Shown in pieces: positions 28,508 to 37,902 of a stretch of DNA of 47,504 nucleotides. The DNA is taken from the NCBI GenBank assembly GCA_018058095.1, contig JAGPCO010000053.1:1-47504 (forward strand), given 5' to 3'. Numbering within the stretch: position 1 is the stretch's first letter; every line of letters starts with the position of its first letter. The notes under the pieces were generated by a model, which saw only the letters and a list, made by a program, of their open reading frames with translations, was not told the DNA's origin and did no database searches. Position numbers and translations under genes: made by a program. Source of the stretch: Kofleriaceae bacterium (lineage in GTDB: Bacteria; Myxococcota_A; Polyangia; Haliangiales; Haliangiaceae).

Positions 28508-30505
28508 TCAGCGGCCGCGGCTGCGCAGCGCGGCCGTCACCACCGCGTCGACGGTGAGGCCGAACTTCTCGAGCAGGACTTCGCCCGGGGCCGACGCGCC
28601 GTAGCGGTCGAGCCCGACCACCTCGCCGCGATCGCCGACGTGCTCGCGCCAGCCGAACGTGACGCCGGCCTCGACCGCGACGCGCGCGGTCACCGCCGGC
28701 GGCAACACGCTGGCGCGGTAGGCCGCGTCCTGGCGCGCGAACAGCGACCAGCACGGCATCGACACCACCCGCGCCGCCACGCCCTGGCCAGCCAGCCGCT
28801 CGCGCGCGGCCAGCGCCAGCCCGACCTCGGAGCCGGTGGCGATGATCACCACGTCGACCGTGCCGCCGGCGCCGTCGGCCAGCACGTAGGCGCCACGCTC
28901 GGCCCCGGGCGCGCCCGGCGCGGTCACCACCGCCAGATCCTGGCGCGACAGCACCAGCGCGGTCGGCCCGTCGGTGCGGGTCATGGCGTGGCGCCACGCC
29001 GCCACCGTCTCGTGGGCGTCGGCCGGGCGCACCACGTCGAGGTTGGGCATGGCGCGCAGGGCCATGAGGTGCTCGACCGGCTGGTGGGTCGGGCCGTCCT
29101 CGCCCAGGCCGATCGAGTCGTGGGTCCACACGTAGATCACCGGCTGCTTGTTGAGCGCGGCCAGCCGCACCGCCGGCCGCATGTAGTCGGAGAACACGAA
29201 GAACGTCGACGCGAACGGGCGCAGGCCGCCGTGGTAGGCCATGCCGTTGGCCATGGCGCCCATCGCGTGCTCGCGGATGCCGAAGCGCACGTTGCGGCCG
29301 GCGCCGGTGCGGTCGTAGTCGCCGCCCGGCACCAGGGTCTTGGTCGAGCCGCCGAGGTCGGCGTCGCCGCCGAGCAGCGCCGGCACCGCCTTGGCCAGGG
29401 CCGCCATGATCTTGCCGGAGGCGACGCGGGTGGCGAGGTTGTCGCCGGCCTTCCACGTCGGCAGCTCGCGGTCCCAGCCGGCCGGCAGCCGACCGGCCAC
29501 CGCGTCGTCGAAGCTGGCCGCCAGCTCGGGGTGGGCGACGCGCCACGCCGCCAGCCGCTCGCGCCAGGCGGCGTGGGCGGCGCGGCCGCGCTCGCCGATG
29601 CCGGCCATGTGCGCGCCGGCCTCGTCCGGGACGTGGAAGTACCGCTGCTCGTCCCAGCCGAGCGCGCGCTTGGTCGCCGCCACCTCGGCCTCGCCCAGCG
29701 GCGAGCCGTGCGCGCTGGCGGTGCCGGCCTTCTTGGGCGAGCCGAAGCCGATGGTGGTCTTGATGATGATGATCGACGGCCGGCTGGCCTCGGCCTTGGC
29801 CTCGGTCAGGGCCCGGTCGAGCCCGGCCAGGTCGCGATCGCCGTCGGTGACACGCAGCACCTGCCAGCCGTAGGCGGCGTAGCGCGCGGCCACGTCCTCG
29901 CTCATCGCCAGCGAGGCCGGCCCGTCGAGGGTGATCTCGTTGGCGTCGTACAGGTAGATGAGCTTGCCCAGGGCGAGGTGGCCGGCCAGCGCCGCCGCCT
30001 CGTGCGAGATGCCCTCCTGGACGTCGCCGTCCGAGACCAGCGCGTAGGTGAAGTGATCGACGACGGTGTGGCCGGGCCGGTTGAACAGCGTGGCCAGGTA
30101 CCGCTCGGCCAGCGCCATGCCGACCGCGTTGGCGCTGCCCTGGCCGAGCGGGCCGGTGGTGGCCTCGACGCCGGGCGTCTCGTGCCACTCGGGGTGGCCG
30201 GGGGTGTTGCTGCCCCACTGCCGGAACGCCTTGAGGTCGTCGAGCGACACCGCGAAGCCAGCCAGGTGGAGCAGGGCGTACTGCAGCATCGAGCCGTGGC
30301 CGGCCGACAGCACGAAGCGGTCGCGATCGAACCAGGTCGGCGCCGTCGGGTCGACCTTGAGGTGCTGCTGCCACAACACGTAGGCCATGGGCGCGCAGCC
30401 GAGCGGCAGCCCGGGGTGGCCGGAGTTGGCCTTCTGGATGGCGTCGATCGCCAGGGTCCGGATCGTGTTGATGGCCAGGGTCGCCAGCGCCTCGTTCGCG
30501 ATCAC
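28508..30505 (-). CDS. tkt: Transketolase
   Basis: Thiamine-diphosphate enzyme of the pentose phosphate and Calvin-type sugar interconversions. The 665-residue length is standard. Motifs are [21 protein letters not shown] (with the catalytic His), [38 protein letters not shown]-like [12 protein letters not shown] and DANEITLDG for thiamine diphosphate/Mg2+, and [35 protein letters not shown] and GRYGASAPG-like DRYGASAPG in the pyrimidine and C-terminal domains. The start is GTG at 30505. It is monocistronic: its neighbours are unrelated lipoproteins and the 146-base upstream gap faces a divergent gene. Confidence 0.96.
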
Positions 30506-30651
30506 GTTGCCTCCACGGTGTCAGCCGGTTGTGCAAGACGCCGGGCGCCGGGGCGACCGACGGCGCGGACGCTACCACAGCGGGGCCGCCCGCCCGGTCG
30601 CGGCCGGGATCACCTGGCCCACACCGGCGCCGGCGCTGGTACCGTCGCGGC

Positions 30652-33015
30652 GTGAGCGGCTCACGCGTCTCCGTCCTGCTGGTGGTCGCGCTGACCGGGG
30701 CCTGCCTCGACGAGGTCACCCAGTACTGCGCGGCGGTCGACCTGGTGTGCCCACGCTCGACGGTGTGCACCCCGCGCGGCTGCCTACCGCCCGCGCTGCT
30801 CGCGGCCTGCGCCGGCCAGGACGCGGGCGCGCTGTGCGACCTGGCCTCGGGCGTGCGTGGCCGCTGCGCCGACGACGGCGTGTGTACCGCGCGGGTGTGC
30901 GGCGACGGTGTGGTCGACACCGACCTGCTCGAGCAGTGCGACGACGGTCGCAACCACCGCCTGCGCGATGGCTGCACCGATCTGTGCGCGGCCGAGCGCC
31001 CGGCCTGGACCACCATCAACCCGCCTTACCTCGTTCGCGGCGGTCTGCCGGTCGCGACCTACGACTCGTTTCGCCGGCGCGTCGTCGCCCTCAGCGACAG
31101 CCTGGGCGGGCTGGTCGAGTTCGACGGCCGGGTCTGGCACGCGCCGCCGACCGATCCGCCCCGTCTGCTTCGACACACCCTGGCCTACGACCCCCTGCGG
31201 CGCCGCGTGGTGGCGTTCGGCGGCACCCTGTTCGATCAGGACGGGGGCTCGACGATGAGCGATCGCACGTGGGAGTACGACGGGCGGCGCTGGGAAGAGC
31301 GGGTGTTGCCGGTGCGGCCGGCGGCGCGGCTCGGCGCGGTCATGGCGTTCGACCCCGATCGCGGCCAGGTCGTGCTGTTCGGCGGGAACTCGGACGGCGG
31401 TCTGCTGGCCGACGTGTGGACCTACGACGGCGTCGGCTGGACCGAGCTGTCGACCACCGGCACGCCGCCGCCGGTGACGGCCAACGGCCGCGTCCTGGTG
31501 CACGACCCGCGCGGCCACCGCCTGGTGCTGATCGGTGGCCTCGCGGTCGATGACGCCTGGGCCCTGGTCGGGGCCCGGTGGCAGCCACTCCCCGCCGTCG
31601 GCCTGCCGGCCCGCGTCGCCGCGGTCGAGCCCAGCAGCGGCCGGGTGGTCGCGTTCGGCAGCGTCGACAGCCTGGGCCCGATGCAGGGCGCGGCCCTCGT
31701 CGGTGATGCCTGGGAGCGCCTGCAAGATGGGCCGGCGGGTTACGGCGTCATCGCCGGCACCCTGACGCCGACGCCGACCGGGGACCTGCTGTGCCTGGAC
31801 GGCCTGGGTGGCCCGACGTGGCGATACCGGGCCGGGGCCTGGGCCGAGCTCGACGCCACCCCGGAGTTCGGGCGGCCCGCGAGCGCGTTCGATGAGGCGC
31901 GGGCCCGCCTGGTCACGGTGCTCGCCAACCCGGGGGGCCGGCTCGAGACCTGGGAGCTGGTCGAGGGGGTCTTCACCCGGGTCGGAGTCCAGGACCTCGG
32001 CGGGCTCGGGCGACCCGCGCTGACCTTCGATCGCCGGCGCCAGCGCCTGCTCCTCGTCGGGGGGGCGTCTGGGCGCGAGGTCTGGACCTGGTCCGAGGCG
32101 GGGTGGCAGGTGCTGCCGGTGACCGGGGCGCCGCCGGCCGGCCAGACCTGGACCGGCACCTACGACCCCACCGGCGATCGCCTGGTCTTGGTCGGGGCTG
32201 GCACGGGCGATCGTGCCCAGACCTGGGCCCTCAGCGGCGCGGGGGTGTGGAGCGAGCTGGGGGGCGCCGAGGCCCCGCCGTCCGGTGACGCCAGCCTGAT
32301 CTTCGACGAACGGGGTGACCGACTGCTGCTGTACGCGCCGACGAGTCGGACCGAGCCGGACCTTCGCTCCGAGCTGTGGGAGCTGCGTGGCACCACCTGG
32401 CGCCGCCTGGTCGTGCCGCTCGCCGCGCCGGCGCAGCCAGCCGAGGGCTTCGTGTTCCACCGCAGCCTGGGCCGGGCGGTGCTGGTCCAGACCGCGTTCC
32501 CGCCGCAGCCGCTCTGGGCCGGGCCCCGCAACCTGTGGGTGTTCGACGGGCTGGCCTGGCAGCCCGAATTCGTCGACGACGCGCCGGCGCCGCGCAGCGG
32601 GGCGACCTACACGTTCGACCCGCTGTCCCAGGGGGTCGCGGTGATCGGCGCGCCCCTCGACGTCGACCTGCTGCGCTGGCGCGACACCGCCACGCTCGAT
32701 GAGCGCTGCGACGGCGTGACCGATCTCGACCAGGACGGGCTGGCCGGCTGCGCCGATCCCGACTGCTGGGGCTGGTGCGCGCCGGCATGCGAGCCGGGCG
32801 CGAGCTGCGCCAGCGCGAGCTGCGGCGACGGCGTGTGTACGGCCGAGCGCGAGGACCCTTGGCGCTGCCCGGTCGACTGTGACCCGGCGCCGGCGGCGTG
32901 CGGCGACGGGGTGTGCAGCGCGCGGGACGAGACCCTGGCCGGCTGCCCGGCCGACTGCGCGGTGTGCGCGGATGGGGTGTGCTCGGCCGCCGAGGCCTGC
33001 CCGGTCGACTGCTGA
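30652..33015 (+). CDS. Kelch-repeat lipoprotein with DUF4215-like and C-terminal Cys-rich repeats
   Basis: A 787-residue predicted lipoprotein (MSGSRVSVLLVVALTGAC, C18). After a Cys-rich start comes a DUF4215-like segment, CGDGVVDTDLLEQCDDGRN. The bulk is a Kelch-like propeller with repeated RRRVVAFGG, GQVVLFGGNS, HRLVLIGG and RLLLVGGAS strands followed by W-x-Y/L-x-G-x-x-W strands. The last about 70 residues contain three CGDGVC...CPVDC-type repeats, common in myxobacterial surface proteins. The GTG at 30652 starts the signal peptide directly. A structural or adhesive role is likely; no enzyme motif is visible. Confidence 0.78.
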   Translation: MSGSRVSVLLVVALTGACLDEVTQYCAAVDLVCPRSTVCTPRGCLPPALLAACAGQDAGALCDLASGVRGRCADDGVCTARVCGDGVVDTDLLEQCDDGRNHRLRDGCTDLCAAERPAWTTINPPYLVRGGLPVATYDSFRRRVVALSDSLGGLVEFDGRVWHAPPTDPPRLLRHTLAYDPLRRRVVAFGGTLFDQDGGSTMSDRTWEYDGRRWEERVLPVRPAARLGAVMAFDPDRGQVVLFGGNSDGGLLADVWTYDGVGWTELSTTGTPPPVTANGRVLVHDPRGHRLVLIGGLAVDDAWALVGARWQPLPAVGLPARVAAVEPSSGRVVAFGSVDSLGPMQGAALVGDAWERLQDGPAGYGVIAGTLTPTPTGDLLCLDGLGGPTWRYRAGAWAELDATPEFGRPASAFDEARARLVTVLANPGGRLETWELVEGVFTRVGVQDLGGLGRPALTFDRRRQRLLLVGGASGREVWTWSEAGWQVLPVTGAPPAGQTWTGTYDPTGDRLVLVGAGTGDRAQTWALSGAGVWSELGGAEAPPSGDASLIFDERGDRLLLYAPTSRTEPDLRSELWELRGTTWRRLVVPLAAPAQPAEGFVFHRSLGRAVLVQTAFPPQPLWAGPRNLWVFDGLAWQPEFVDDAPAPRSGATYTFDPLSQGVAVIGAPLDVDLLRWRDTATLDERCDGVTDLDQDGLAGCADPDCWGWCAPACEPGASCASASCGDGVCTAEREDPWRCPVDCDPAPAACGDGVCSARDETLAGCPADCAVCADGVCSAAEACPVDC

Positions 33016-33068: not shown

Positions 33069-34922
33069 ATGAACCCAGCCCGGTTGATCGCGGGGGTGCT
33101 GCTCCTGCTCGCGGCCTGCAGCGGCGGCGCGTCGACGCCCGTCACCACGCCAACCCCGACGCCGACGCCGACCCCGACGCGGCCCGAGCGCCCGACCGGG
33201 GACGTGGTGGTGCCGGGCCCGGCCAACCCCAACCCGGGGCCCGGGCCGGTGGCGCCACCGGCGACGGCGCGGCCGCCCGAGCTGTTCGCGCCGGCCCAGA
33301 CCAAGGTCGGCGTCGGTCAGACGATCTCGTTCGGCGTCGCCGCCATCGACCAGGACCTCGACGAGACCCGGGTCGATGTCGCGACCCTGCCGGCCAGCGC
33401 GGTGTTCGATGCGCTGACCCAGACCGTGACGTGGACACCGACCAAGGCCGAGCTCGGCCCGGCCCGCTTCGAGCTGGTCGCGTCGCAGCCAGGCGCCGGC
33501 GGTGCGTTCGCCCCGGTCGCTCGCAAGGCGTTCGAGATCACCGTCGAGCCACGCAAGCAGCCGGCGCCGGTCGCGCCGCGGCAGGGCGCGGTGGTCGAGA
33601 CGCTGCTCACCATCCGCGAGCCGGCCCGCCTGGCGCGGGTCAACCTCGACTGGCCGTTCGACGCCATGCTGCAGAAGGGCGCCGAGCTGCTGCGCGCCAC
33701 CCTGCCGGCCGAGGCCCAGGCCAAGCTGGGCCCGATCGACCGCAAGGCGCTGTACCGCGACTTCCTGACCGGCCTGGCCCAGACCCACGGCAACCCGCGC
33801 CTGGACCCGGCCTCGCCGCAGTTCGACCGCGTCCGCTACGCCGACCCGCAGGCGTGGAAGATCGTCGCGGTCCGACCCCGCGTCGACAAGAAGTGGGCCG
33901 AGCTGCGCCTCGTCTACCAGCACACCCGGTCACCCGAGCCGGTGTTCGCGATGTTCCGGTTCCGTCCGAGCTGGGACGTGCCGGGCTTGCCGCCGGAGGC
34001 GCGCGAGCAGAACAACCGCGCCTTCTACGCGCTGGTCAGCCAGCACCTGCTCGACGCCCGCGGTGGCGCCGACGAGGCGCTGCTGGCCGACCCCAAGCTG
34101 CACGCGCGCCGGGTCTCGGCCTTCGTGCGCGCCGTGCTCACCTTCAACGCCGCGCCGGCGCGTCCGACGGCGAAGAAGGGCGAGGGCGCCGCGGGCCTGG
34201 TCGCGCCGGTGCCGCCGTACCTGCGCGCGGCCTTCCTGGCGCTGCCGACGGAGGCGCGCCTCGGCGGCGGCTCGGCCAGAGGCGCGGATGGAAGCTACCG
34301 CTCCGGCGACGGCTGGGCCTGGAGCGTGATGAAGCCGATGCCGAGCCCCGACGGCGCGGCGCAGCGCTACGTCAACATCGGCATCCCCGGCTTCTGGACC
34401 GAGGCGGTGGCGTCGCCCGATGGCAAGGCCTGGGTCGGCAAGTGCGCCGCCAGGTTCGATGGCGACAACCCGCGGCACGAGCCCGGCTACGAGGTGCTGT
34501 GCCGCAAGGCCCAGGGCTTCGTCGACCTACCGGCGGTGGAGGGCGGCAAGGTGACCTCGGCCAAGATCGACGCCGTCAACCTGTTCGTGCGCCACAAGCT
34601 GGTCGACGCCGCGGCGCAGCTGCCGCTCGAGGACGGCCGCCGCGATCACGGCGAGGAGAACGGGATGACCTGCGCGCAGTGCCACATGCGCAACTTCGGC
34701 GTCCGCGACTACCACGATCCTCGCACCGCCAGCCCGGCCGCGGGCGCGCCGACCCGCGGCAATCGCCCCCTGCCCACCCTCAACTTCCAGATCGTGCCGT
34801 CGACGACGTGGGAGGCGTACACCCTCGAGTTCATGCGCGACCAGGAGTGCAAGGCCAAGGCGGCGTACGAGGCGCTCGGCCTGCCGACCGCGCTGACCTG
34901 CCCGCTCCTCGCCGCCAAGTGA
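33069..34922 (+). CDS. Haem-binding lipoprotein with an N-terminal Ig/cadherin-like domain
   Basis: A 617-residue predicted lipoprotein (MNPARLIAGVLLLLAAC, C17) with a (TP)n and Pro/Gly linker to about residue 65. Residues 75-170 look like a putative Ig domain (QTISFGVAAIDQDLDETRV, then FDALTQTVTWTP). The C-terminal half has no family I recognise apart from a haem motif, CAQCH near residue 536, and an RNFGVRDYHDP segment after it. It ends 13 bases before the ATG of the polyferredoxin fusion, so it is probably cotranscribed and may be its extracytoplasmic electron partner. That last point is inferred from position. Confidence 0.72.
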   Translation: MNPARLIAGVLLLLAACSGGASTPVTTPTPTPTPTPTRPERPTGDVVVPGPANPNPGPGPVAPPATARPPELFAPAQTKVGVGQTISFGVAAIDQDLDETRVDVATLPASAVFDALTQTVTWTPTKAELGPARFELVASQPGAGGAFAPVARKAFEITVEPRKQPAPVAPRQGAVVETLLTIREPARLARVNLDWPFDAMLQKGAELLRATLPAEAQAKLGPIDRKALYRDFLTGLAQTHGNPRLDPASPQFDRVRYADPQAWKIVAVRPRVDKKWAELRLVYQHTRSPEPVFAMFRFRPSWDVPGLPPEAREQNNRAFYALVSQHLLDARGGADEALLADPKLHARRVSAFVRAVLTFNAAPARPTAKKGEGAAGLVAPVPPYLRAAFLALPTEARLGGGSARGADGSYRSGDGWAWSVMKPMPSPDGAAQRYVNIGIPGFWTEAVASPDGKAWVGKCAARFDGDNPRHEPGYEVLCRKAQGFVDLPAVEGGKVTSAKIDAVNLFVRHKLVDAAAQLPLEDGRRDHGEENGMTCAQCHMRNFGVRDYHDPRTASPAAGAPTRGNRPLPTLNFQIVPSTTWEAYTLEFMRDQECKAKAAYEALGLPTALTCPLLAAK

Positions 34923-34935
34923 GCCGACCCCGCCG

Positions 34936-37902
34936 ATGAGCACGACGGATCCAGCGAGCGCCGGCCCGGCCGGCAAGAAGGCCGGCAAGGCCGGCGCCAA
35001 GCTGCCGGTCGTCGGTGGCGCGCCGGCGCCGGCCGCCGGCAAGGGCGGCAAGAAGGCGGCGGCCGCGCGCGCCGGCGGCTGGGCCGCGTTCACCGACGGT
35101 GGCGCCGCGCCGCGCTGGATCGTCGCCGCTCGCCTGGTGCTGGTGCTGGCGCTGGCGGCGACCGTGCCGACCATCCTCGGCGTCAGCCACGGTCGACGCC
35201 TGCTGTGGACGGTCGGCATCGCCGCCCTGCCGTTCTTCTGGATCATCGCCGGCTACCACGTGTGGCGCCGCATCTGCCCGCTCGCCGTGGTCGGCCAGCT
35301 CGGCCGCCTGCTCGGCCGGCCCGGCACGCGCAAGGCGGGCGACTGGATGGGGCGGCACTACCTGCTGATCCAGCTCGGCGGGATGTTCGTCGGCATGAGC
35401 TACCGGCTGGTGGTCGGCAACGGCAGCACGACCTGGTTGGCCGGCTTCCTCGTCGCCGCCGTGGTCGCCGCCGCGGTCACCAGCTTCGTCTACGCCGGCA
35501 AGACCTGGTGCAACTTCCTGTGCCCGGTCGGCCTGGTCGAGAAGATCTACACCGAGCCGGTCCGGGCCGCGCCAGCGCCAGTGGCGCAGGCCGAGCTGAC
35601 CTCGCAGTGCGGGCCGTGTGTGGCGTGCAAGCGGCACTGCCCCGACATCGATCAGGAGCAGGGCTACTGGAAGGAGCTGACCGAGCCCGGCCGGCGCATC
35701 GCCTACTTCGCCTGGCCCGGCATGGTCGTGGCCTTCTACCTCTACTACTACCTGGTCAGCGGGACCTGGGACTACTACTTCTCCGGCGTGTGGGCCTACG
35801 AGGACACCCAGGCCACGACCTGGCTCGACGCCGGGTTCACGTTCTGGCCGGCGGTGCCGCGGGTGGTGGCGGCGCCGCTCACGGTGGGCGGGCTCGGCCT
35901 CGCCTCGTACCTGGGGTTCGCCGGGATCGAGGCCGCGCTGCAGCGCCGGGTCGAGCGAGGCCTGGCTGGTGCCGACGACGGGGCCGACGACGCGGTCCGC
36001 GCCGGCAAGGTCGCGGCCGGCCTGGCCCTGGTCCGCCACCGCCTCCTGATCGTCGCCGGCTTCGTCGGCTTCAACGCGTTCTACCTGTTCGCCGGTCAGC
36101 CCAGCCTGCGCCGGCTGCCGGAGTGGGTCGTGCACGGCTGGGGCCTGGTCGTGGTGTTCGCCTCGGCCGCGATCTTCTTTCGCCGCTGGGGCCGCAGCGA
36201 GGACGCCTACGTCGAGGAGAAGTTCGCGCAGAAGATCCTCAAGAAGTGGGAGTGGGGCGACGCCCCGCCGTCGGACGACCTGCGCGACATCTACCTGGTC
36301 CACACCGAGCGGCAGAAGCAGCGCGACGGCCGCCTGCGCGCCTACAAGGAGACGATCCGCGAGCTCGTCGCCGACGGCCTGGTCAGCCGGGCCGAGCTGG
36401 TCATCCTCGACAACCTGCGGGCCCAGCTCGGCATCTCCGACAAGGACCACCAGAAGATCGTCGGCGAGCTGAGCGAGGAGGAGCGCCAGCTGTTCGACCC
36501 GTCGTACCAGGGCTCGGTCGAGCAGCGCCTGCAGCGCCAGCAGTACCAGCGCGACCTCGAGCGGCTGGTGGTCGACGCGGCCCGAGCCGGGGCGGCGCCG
36601 TCGCCGGCCGCGATCGACGCCCTCCGGCGCGAGCGCGGGACCAGCGACGACGAACACGCCGCGACCATGGCCACGCTCCTGGCCGAGGACGGCCCGGTCG
36701 CGGCGCTGTGCCGCGAGTCGATCGCCGCCGCCGCCGCGCTGGCCCGGGCCGCGGCCGCCGCGCACGACCCGGCCGACCTCGACTCGGCCAGCCTGGCCCT
36801 GGTGCGATCGCTGGCCGAGCGCGGGGTGCGGGCCCAGCTGGCGCGCGCGCTCGGCATCGCCGCGGTCATGCGCAAGGATCCGGCGGCGATGGCGCTGCGC
36901 GGCAAGGTGCTGGCGGCGCGCACCGTCGGCCCCGACCTGCTGATCGGCGTCGACGCCGCCGCCGTGCCGGCGCTGCCGGCCATGCAGGCGGCGCTGGCCC
37001 CGCTGGCGCCGCAGGCGGCGCCGGCGCCGCTCGACCCGGCGCCGCTGCTGGCGGTGCTCGACCTCGGCGGCGTCCACCTGCGGGCCGCGCTGTCCCAGGT
37101 GCTGTCGCGCTTCGACGACGGCGACGCGCGCGGGCGGCTCGAGGGCCTGCTGGGCGACGCCGAGCCCATCGTGCGCGAGGCGGCGGTGCGGGCCCTGGGC
37201 GCGCGCAACCGCCTCACCCGCGACCTGCTGTCGCGCGCGCTGGCCGACGCCGACGGCCGGGTCCGCTCGGCCGCGGTGCGCGCGGTGTCGGGCGGCACCT
37301 CGGGCGAGCTGCCGGCGATCGACGTCAGCCGGATGGCGCAGACCACCCGCGGCGTCGGCAACCAGGGCGCCTACGCCACGCTCGACGCCAACGCGGTGCT
37401 CGGGGCCATGACGACGATCGAGCGCATGATGCTGCTGCGCCAGGTGCCGATGTTCGCCCCGCTCGATCCGGAGGACCTCGAGGAGCTGGCCGGGGTGGTC
37501 GAGGAGCGCCGGTTCGATCCCGGCATGGACCTGTGCCGCGAGGGCGACGCCGGCGACGCGGTCTTCCTCATCGTGCGCGGCCACGTCCGGGTCTTCACCG
37601 GCGGCCGCGGTGGGCGGAGCGGCAACCACGAGCGGACGCTGTCGACCCTGGGTGAGGGCGCCTGCATCGGCGAGATGGCGGTGTTCGACCACGCGCCGCG
37701 CTCGGCCACCGTGCGGGCCGAGGATCGGGTCCGGGCCCTGGTGGTGCCGGGCGAGGGCTTCCTCGCCCTCCTGGCCGACCGCCCGGAGATGAACCAGGCC
37801 ATCATCACCGAGCTGGTCCGGCGCATGCGTGGCCTGATGGCGGCGTCGGCCGCGACCCCGCCGCCGTCGGAGCCGGATCCGGCGACGACGCTGCCGCGCT
37901 AG
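34936..37902 (+). CDS. Membrane polyferredoxin (NapH/RdxA-like) fused to HEAT-like repeats and a cNMP-binding domain
   Basis: 988 residues. A Lys/Ala/Gly-rich N-terminus (1-55) precedes membrane helices. The NapH/NosR-type Cys motifs are RRICPLA (C114) and CNFLCPVG (C192, C196). A [4Fe-4S] ferredoxin motif, C225xxC228xxC231xxxC235P, is followed by further helices to about 410. Then come a charged helical region with long coils (about 430-640), HEAT-like repeats near 690-800 (VREAAVRALGARNRLT; VRSAAVRAVSGG) and a cyclic-nucleotide-binding domain at about 830-955 with GEMAVFDHAPRSATVRA, including the Glu and Arg expected to bind the phosphate-ribose. It probably couples electron transfer to nucleotide sensing. 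Confidence 0.85.
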   Translation: MSTTDPASAGPAGKKAGKAGAKLPVVGGAPAPAAGKGGKKAAAARAGGWAAFTDGGAAPRWIVAARLVLVLALAATVPTILGVSHGRRLLWTVGIAALPFFWIIAGYHVWRRICPLAVVGQLGRLLGRPGTRKAGDWMGRHYLLIQLGGMFVGMSYRLVVGNGSTTWLAGFLVAAVVAAAVTSFVYAGKTWCNFLCPVGLVEKIYTEPVRAAPAPVAQAELTSQCGPCVACKRHCPDIDQEQGYWKELTEPGRRIAYFAWPGMVVAFYLYYYLVSGTWDYYFSGVWAYEDTQATTWLDAGFTFWPAVPRVVAAPLTVGGLGLASYLGFAGIEAALQRRVERGLAGADDGADDAVRAGKVAAGLALVRHRLLIVAGFVGFNAFYLFAGQPSLRRLPEWVVHGWGLVVVFASAAIFFRRWGRSEDAYVEEKFAQKILKKWEWGDAPPSDDLRDIYLVHTERQKQRDGRLRAYKETIRELVADGLVSRAELVILDNLRAQLGISDKDHQKIVGELSEEERQLFDPSYQGSVEQRLQRQQYQRDLERLVVDAARAGAAPSPAAIDALRRERGTSDDEHAATMATLLAEDGPVAALCRESIAAAAALARAAAAAHDPADLDSASLALVRSLAERGVRAQLARALGIAAVMRKDPAAMALRGKVLAARTVGPDLLIGVDAAAVPALPAMQAALAPLAPQAAPAPLDPAPLLAVLDLGGVHLRAALSQVLSRFDDGDARGRLEGLLGDAEPIVREAAVRALGARNRLTRDLLSRALADADGRVRSAAVRAVSGGTSGELPAIDVSRMAQTTRGVGNQGAYATLDANAVLGAMTTIERMMLLRQVPMFAPLDPEDLEELAGVVEERRFDPGMDLCREGDAGDAVFLIVRGHVRVFTGGRGGRSGNHERTLSTLGEGACIGEMAVFDHAPRSATVRAEDRVRALVVPGEGFLALLADRPEMNQAIITELVRRMRGLMAASAATPPPSEPDPATTLPR

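Follow-up and report, generated by a model that had tools for sequence, protein, structure and literature searches.

Can electron transfer through a membrane iron–sulfur protein be set by a cyclic nucleotide? A locus of a Kofleriaceae bacterium (contig JAGPCO010000053.1) raises this question, because a sequence-only reading of it had placed a membrane Fe-S domain, HEAT repeats, and a cyclic-nucleotide-binding domain (CNBD) in a single gene, immediately downstream of a gene for a heme lipoprotein. The window, that is, the whole stretch analyzed, comprised 47,504 nucleotides and included the following pair:

34936..37902, + strand: fused gene, 988 aa, with a NapH-like membrane Fe-S domain, a helical linker, HEAT repeats and a CNBD (open reading frame, Pfam, homologues)
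33069..34922, + strand: partner lipoprotein, 617 aa, with an Ig-like N domain, one invariant CxxCH and four more invariant Cys (alignment)

The fused gene ran from an ATG start to a TAG stop with no internal stop codons and was present in single copy in the 7.57-Mb, 227-contig genome. Pfam bore out the proposed domain order, recognizing Fer4_5 (PF12801; 24.1 bits against a cut-off of 22), HEAT_2 (28.4 against 27.7 bits, a marginal match), and cNMP_binding (PF00027; 68.6 against 27.5 bits) from the N to the C terminus, while CRP-type NCBIfam matches remained sub-threshold. Separately, an ENT-domain match at residues 467–516 (E of 0.006) fell below the cut-off and was taken as chance. The full-length structure model was modest (pLDDT 64), with values below 50 around the Cys motifs, so that its Fe-S part was not interpretable.

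A sequencing error that fused two genes had been named as the outcome that would undo the first reading, and relatives were therefore decisive. Specifically, 25 of 56 related genomes (24 besides its own) had matches at E<=1e-40, most of which covered the protein from end to end in a single frame at ~60–65% identity, and ~20 independent Myxococcota genomes encoded the same protein end to end. In a second collection we found 18 loci; 15 of these were on contigs that reached both the Fe-S and the CNBD parts, and 14 of the 15 were in one frame. The same domain order thus recurs widely, and these relatives refute the joining of two genes by an assembly or frameshift error; G006/L043 showed the reverse, a frameshift just before the CNBD (L043:9370, L025:1519) that put this domain out of frame. 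This was the only broken case seen, and it represents either an assembly error or a real loss. Beyond the Myxococcota, the fusion was sought by the close-relative scan of the second collection only (18 loci). Two of those 18 loci, L043 and L048, carried non-myxobacterial labels, which are likely the result of wrong binning or labeling, given their identity of 57–71%. The L048 contig, labeled Pseudorhodoplanes, had both genes at 71% identity and probably comes from a myxobacterium through wrong binning.

With the fusion secure, we examined what kind of redox protein its N-terminal part may be. The features of this part were:

35113..36180, + strand: membrane domain, residues ~60–415, eight predicted transmembrane (TM) helices, both termini predicted cytoplasmic (modest model, hydropathy, positive-inside charges)
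35275..35277, + strand: C114 of WRRICPL, half of the first CX3CP motif, invariant (homologue alignment)
35509..35523, + strand: C192–C196 of GKTWCNFLCPV, CX3CP motif, invariant (homologue alignment)
35608..35640, + strand: C225/C228/C231/C235, single CxxCxxCxxxCPDID 4Fe-4S site, Cys invariant (homologue alignment)
35761..35859, + strand: conserved periplasmic loop 276–308 (WDYYFSGVW...), candidate docking face for the heme partner (conservation)

The Fer4_5 score, together with eight predicted helices (~60–80, 88–107, 131–161, 165–185, 251–275, 309–335, 352–390, and 396–415, with boundaries drawn from the modest model and hydropathy), placed the protein in the NapH-like/Fer4_5 superfamily. It was not a canonical NapH, in that the TIGR02163 (napH_) match was weak, at 20.7 bits where the cut-off is 213, one 4Fe-4S motif was found rather than two C-terminal ones, and only the second of the two CX3CP motifs was intact, the first having one Cys in all 29 homologues. 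Seven Cys were invariant across these 29 sequences, including those without the tail. With one classical 4Fe-4S site and one and a half CX3CP motifs, rather than several ferredoxin motifs, the label of polyferredoxin given in the sequence-only reading does not apply. Nor did the N terminus resemble that of NosR or PceC, since we detected no Pfam match to an extracytosolic FMN-binding domain, and residues 1–59 formed a K/A-rich, low-complexity stretch. Lys and Arg were absent from loop 276–308 and numbered four, five, and seven in segments 108–131, 336–358, and 416–440, respectively, a pattern that favors an N-in/C-in topology and hence a cytoplasmic location for the Cys motifs and the tail. 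Charge and hydropathy thus predict that the HEAT-CNBD tail lies in the cytoplasm. Loop 276–308, predicted to be periplasmic, is a candidate for docking the heme lipoprotein.

The sequence-only reading had counted about 550 residues added after the Fe-S domains. The tail is real; it begins later than supposed, past four more membrane helices (TM5–8) that are present in tail-less relatives as well, such that the added part corresponds to residues ~420–988. Its features were:

36253..37029, + strand: helical linker, residues ~440–698 (conservation, model)
37030..37299, + strand: HEAT-like repeats, residues ~699–788 (Pfam, fold comparison)
37462..37845, + strand: CNBD, residues ~843–970, with the cassette CIGEMAVFDHAPRSATVRA (Pfam, conservation, fold comparison)
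37672..37674, + strand: cassette residue E913
37699..37701, + strand: cassette residue R922

HEAT-like repeats had been suggested for this tail, and they were recognized at residues ~699–788 alone; residues 440–700 were helical and had no Pfam family above cut-off. The first part of this linker (430–525) was one of the best-conserved regions of the whole sequence. Against alphaRep and HEAT chains the repeat region gave a VIA Z of ~13 and an rmsd of 2–3 over 88–90 residues, which lies at the edge of chance for helical repeats. The CNBD assignment was firmer. Beyond its PF00027 score, the domain matched those of PKG, PKA, CRP, and Clr and retained the phosphate-binding cassette (GE...R[ST]A), the stretch GE...PRSAT aligning with its counterpart in PKG and CRP-type domains that have cNMP bound. 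The GEMA and PRSAT residues highlighted at the outset proved near-universal, with GE in all homologues and PR[SA]A in all lineages apart from G036, where Gln replaces the cassette Arg, and G385, where the surroundings of the Arg are altered (SLRSNT). Mean column identity was 0.76 at residues 901–950, the cassette region, compared with 0.53–0.60 at residues 551–700, the least conserved part. Conservation of the cassette region equaled that of the Fe-S membrane part and exceeded that of the helical region preceding it, which fits a working ligand site. The CNBD may thus bind a nucleotide, for which cAMP and cGMP are plausible candidates given that the genome encodes four class III cyclase domains.

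The same domain bears on the main rival, in which the CNBD no longer senses nucleotides, the HEAT-CNBD tail acts as a structural, dimerization, or scaffold arm that recruits cytoplasmic partners, and NapH-like electron transfer is constitutive. In favor of such an arm, HEAT repeats generally bind proteins, G036 has lost the cassette Arg yet retains the domain, the G385 cassette has changed, and the closest precedents (NTT-HEAT-cNBD proteins and family 2B encapsulins) have likewise been described without proof of nucleotide binding. The Arg loss and these comparable proteins keep the scaffold explanation alive, but we consider it unlikely in view of the near-universal GE and PR[SA]A residues and of a cassette region better conserved than the helices before it.

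As the sequence-only reading had noted, the reading frame of the partner lipoprotein ended 13 bases before the start of the fused gene. The lipoprotein had a lipobox (LLAAC) followed by a Pro/Thr-rich stretch and the Ig-like domain, with CxxCH at 34671–34685. In all same-order loci that reached upstream, the heme lipoprotein gene lay directly 5′ of the fused gene and shared its strand, and in 13 of 17 loci a start codon was −4 to +8 bp from the lipoprotein stop codon. Additionally, a class-wide search that used one lipoprotein sequence as query recovered the lipoprotein in 23 genomes, all of which also carried the fused gene. No such gene was located beside the distant fused homologues G036, G385, G300, G304, and G346; the lipoprotein is therefore not an obligate neighbor, and the acceptor in these lineages may differ or be encoded elsewhere. 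Neither Pfam nor NCBIfam contained a family for the lipoprotein or its heme part, and PDB matches covered the Ig-like domain only. At lipobox position +2 the residue was other than Asp; under the E. coli sorting rule this points to the outer membrane, and the long Pro/Thr linker would then be needed for contact with the inner-membrane protein.

One other gene was conserved beside the pair:

28508..30505, − strand: transketolase gene, upstream of the pair (synteny, 16 of 22 loci)

This synteny marks vertical inheritance and is outside the mechanism. In this genome, a gene for a kelch-like, Cys-rich lipoprotein (approximately 30529–33015, + strand) lay between the transketolase and the pair, and tblastn gave no match to it in 22 related loci. 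The neighborhood also speaks to a further alternative, namely that the pair serves assembly or maintenance in the manner of NosR or CcoG, supplying the electrons with which cofactors or disulfides of periplasmic proteins are matured, with the lipoprotein as delivery factor. The CX3CP motifs of NapH and NosR have been considered possible thiol pairs (PMC5928378), and the four invariant extra Cys of the lipoprotein would suit such chemistry, but no maturation target gene was conserved beside the pair, the transketolase being the sole other conserved neighbor found. We regard this explanation as very improbable.

We then considered how the tail is distributed among more distant relatives. A phylum-wide profile search exposed further fusions in three other family groups at 35–43% identity (G036 and G385 in f6, G300 and G304 in f27, and G346 in f43), the overall range for more distant families being 35–48%. 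Tail-less homologues of 390–458 aa that retained all seven Cys were found in family f16 (G215, G234, and G256). In the phylogenetic reconstruction, which was midpoint-rooted for drawing only, all fused sequences were placed on one side of a branch with 100/100 support that separated them from the tail-less ones, fitting either one joining event or one loss. At all three tail-less loci (L086, L087, and L088, corresponding to G256, G215, and G234) the gene adjoined SoxA- and/or SoxB-like FAD dehydrogenase genes; a cation-efflux gene was nearby in two of the three, and the third had a weak ZIP-like match. The tail-less gene and its neighbors may encode a dehydrogenase of the amine type together with the membrane protein that accepts its electrons, and the adjacency to flavoprotein dehydrogenases fits such an acceptor role.

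These neighbors count against yet another alternative, in which the protein senses redox state instead of conducting electrons. Its Fe-S domain would read the quinone or periplasmic redox state via the heme lipoprotein, and its tail would relay the reading to partners in the cytoplasm, the nucleotide acting as a co-signal. NosR/NirI proteins were initially seen as regulators (PMC5928378), and a cytoplasmic arm of this size seems longer than mere gating would need. However, the tail-less relatives adjoin metabolic dehydrogenases, and we identified no output domain (kinase, cyclase, or DNA-binding) in the protein or conserved adjacent to it in syntenic loci. The lack of such a domain in the protein also leaves the earlier suggestion that it signals through a cyclic nucleotide unsupported, and we judge the sensor explanation improbable, if less so than a maturation role.

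The best reading, we infer, is that a cyclic nucleotide gates electron transfer. In its full form, to which we give about an even chance, the fused protein is an inner-membrane, quinone-linked, NapH-type electron conduit that serves the periplasmic cytochrome c lipoprotein at a rate tuned by cAMP or cGMP. Through its membrane part and a cytoplasmic [4Fe-4S] cluster the protein would be in redox exchange with either the quinone pool or a donor in the cytoplasm, and the electrons would cross the membrane to, or possibly from, the co-encoded heme lipoprotein. On the cytoplasmic side the helical/HEAT arm would bear the CNBD, and binding of cAMP or cGMP would shift this arm and so alter the electron-transfer rate. 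The gating step is modeled on cyclic-nucleotide-controlled transporters and on the proposal made for NTT-HEAT-CNBD proteins. In this family of soil and water bacteria, the built-in CNBD together with the near-constant pairing with the heme lipoprotein suggests an electron-transfer step that a second messenger could adjust up or down.

Respiratory electron transfer is known to be controlled mostly via gene expression and substrate supply. If our proposal is true, one conserved protein unites a trans-membrane Fe-S carrier with a cyclic-nucleotide receptor, allowing electron flow at the inner membrane to be set quickly and directly by a second messenger. It would also suggest that the HEAT-CNBD arm of NTT carriers is a portable control module for membrane proteins, and what this arm does could then be probed on a protein that offers a spectroscopic read-out.

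Each module is known, as is a HEAT-CNBD tail on a transporter, whereas no account of a union with an Fe-S membrane protein, a NapH-like/CNBD fusion, was found in the literature searched, which lacks most subscription papers, and the term 'cyclic nucleotide' is absent from PMC8238504. NapH-like proteins are regarded as modular trans-membrane conduits through which electrons move between a donor, quinol or another, and a carrier outside the cytosol, the partners being flavins or cytochromes (PMC8238504; PMC5928378). The pair described here resembles these systems in combining a membrane Fe-S protein with an extracytosolic electron carrier, but the carrier is a mono-heme lipoprotein with an Ig-like domain and a heme part that lacks a Pfam family. 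With NapH, NosR, and PceC (RdhC) the fused protein shares the multi-helix membrane module, CX3CP motif(s), a cytoplasmic 4Fe-4S motif, and a proposed link from quinol to extracytosolic redox partners. It differs in that the first CX3CP is reduced to xxxxCP, the 4Fe-4S motif is single rather than double, and the FMN domain is missing, while four TM helices and the HEAT-CNBD tail are added.

From the side of the tail, SLC9C1 and cyclic-nucleotide-gated channels have a similar layout of membrane transport domain, cytoplasmic helical linker, and C-terminal CNBD, as fold matches also indicated, although their membrane parts are not homologous to that of the fused protein, they transport ions rather than electrons, and long structural alignments exceeded an rmsd of 15. 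Many Myxococcota genomes (loci L093–L100) encoded NTT-like carriers of ~1000–1270 aa that bear a tail of this type, made up of HEAT repeats and a CNBD, and one such transporter-like frame matched TIGR00769 (NTP/NDP exchange transporter). This NTT-HEAT-cNBD architecture has been published, and its authors proposed control by cAMP (PMC5381601). Like those proteins, which are common in Myxococcota, the fused protein is a membrane protein with HEAT repeats and then a C-terminal CNBD, in the same order; their membrane part is a nucleotide-transporter-like carrier with stronger and more numerous HEAT repeats behind it, whereas that of the fused protein is Fer4_5, with no TIGR00769 match. We hold tentatively, at somewhat less than even confidence, that the locus encodes a membrane conduit for respiratory electrons that a cyclic nucleotide gates allosterically, in which a NapH-type redox module has been joined to the HEAT-CNBD arm found elsewhere on transporters.
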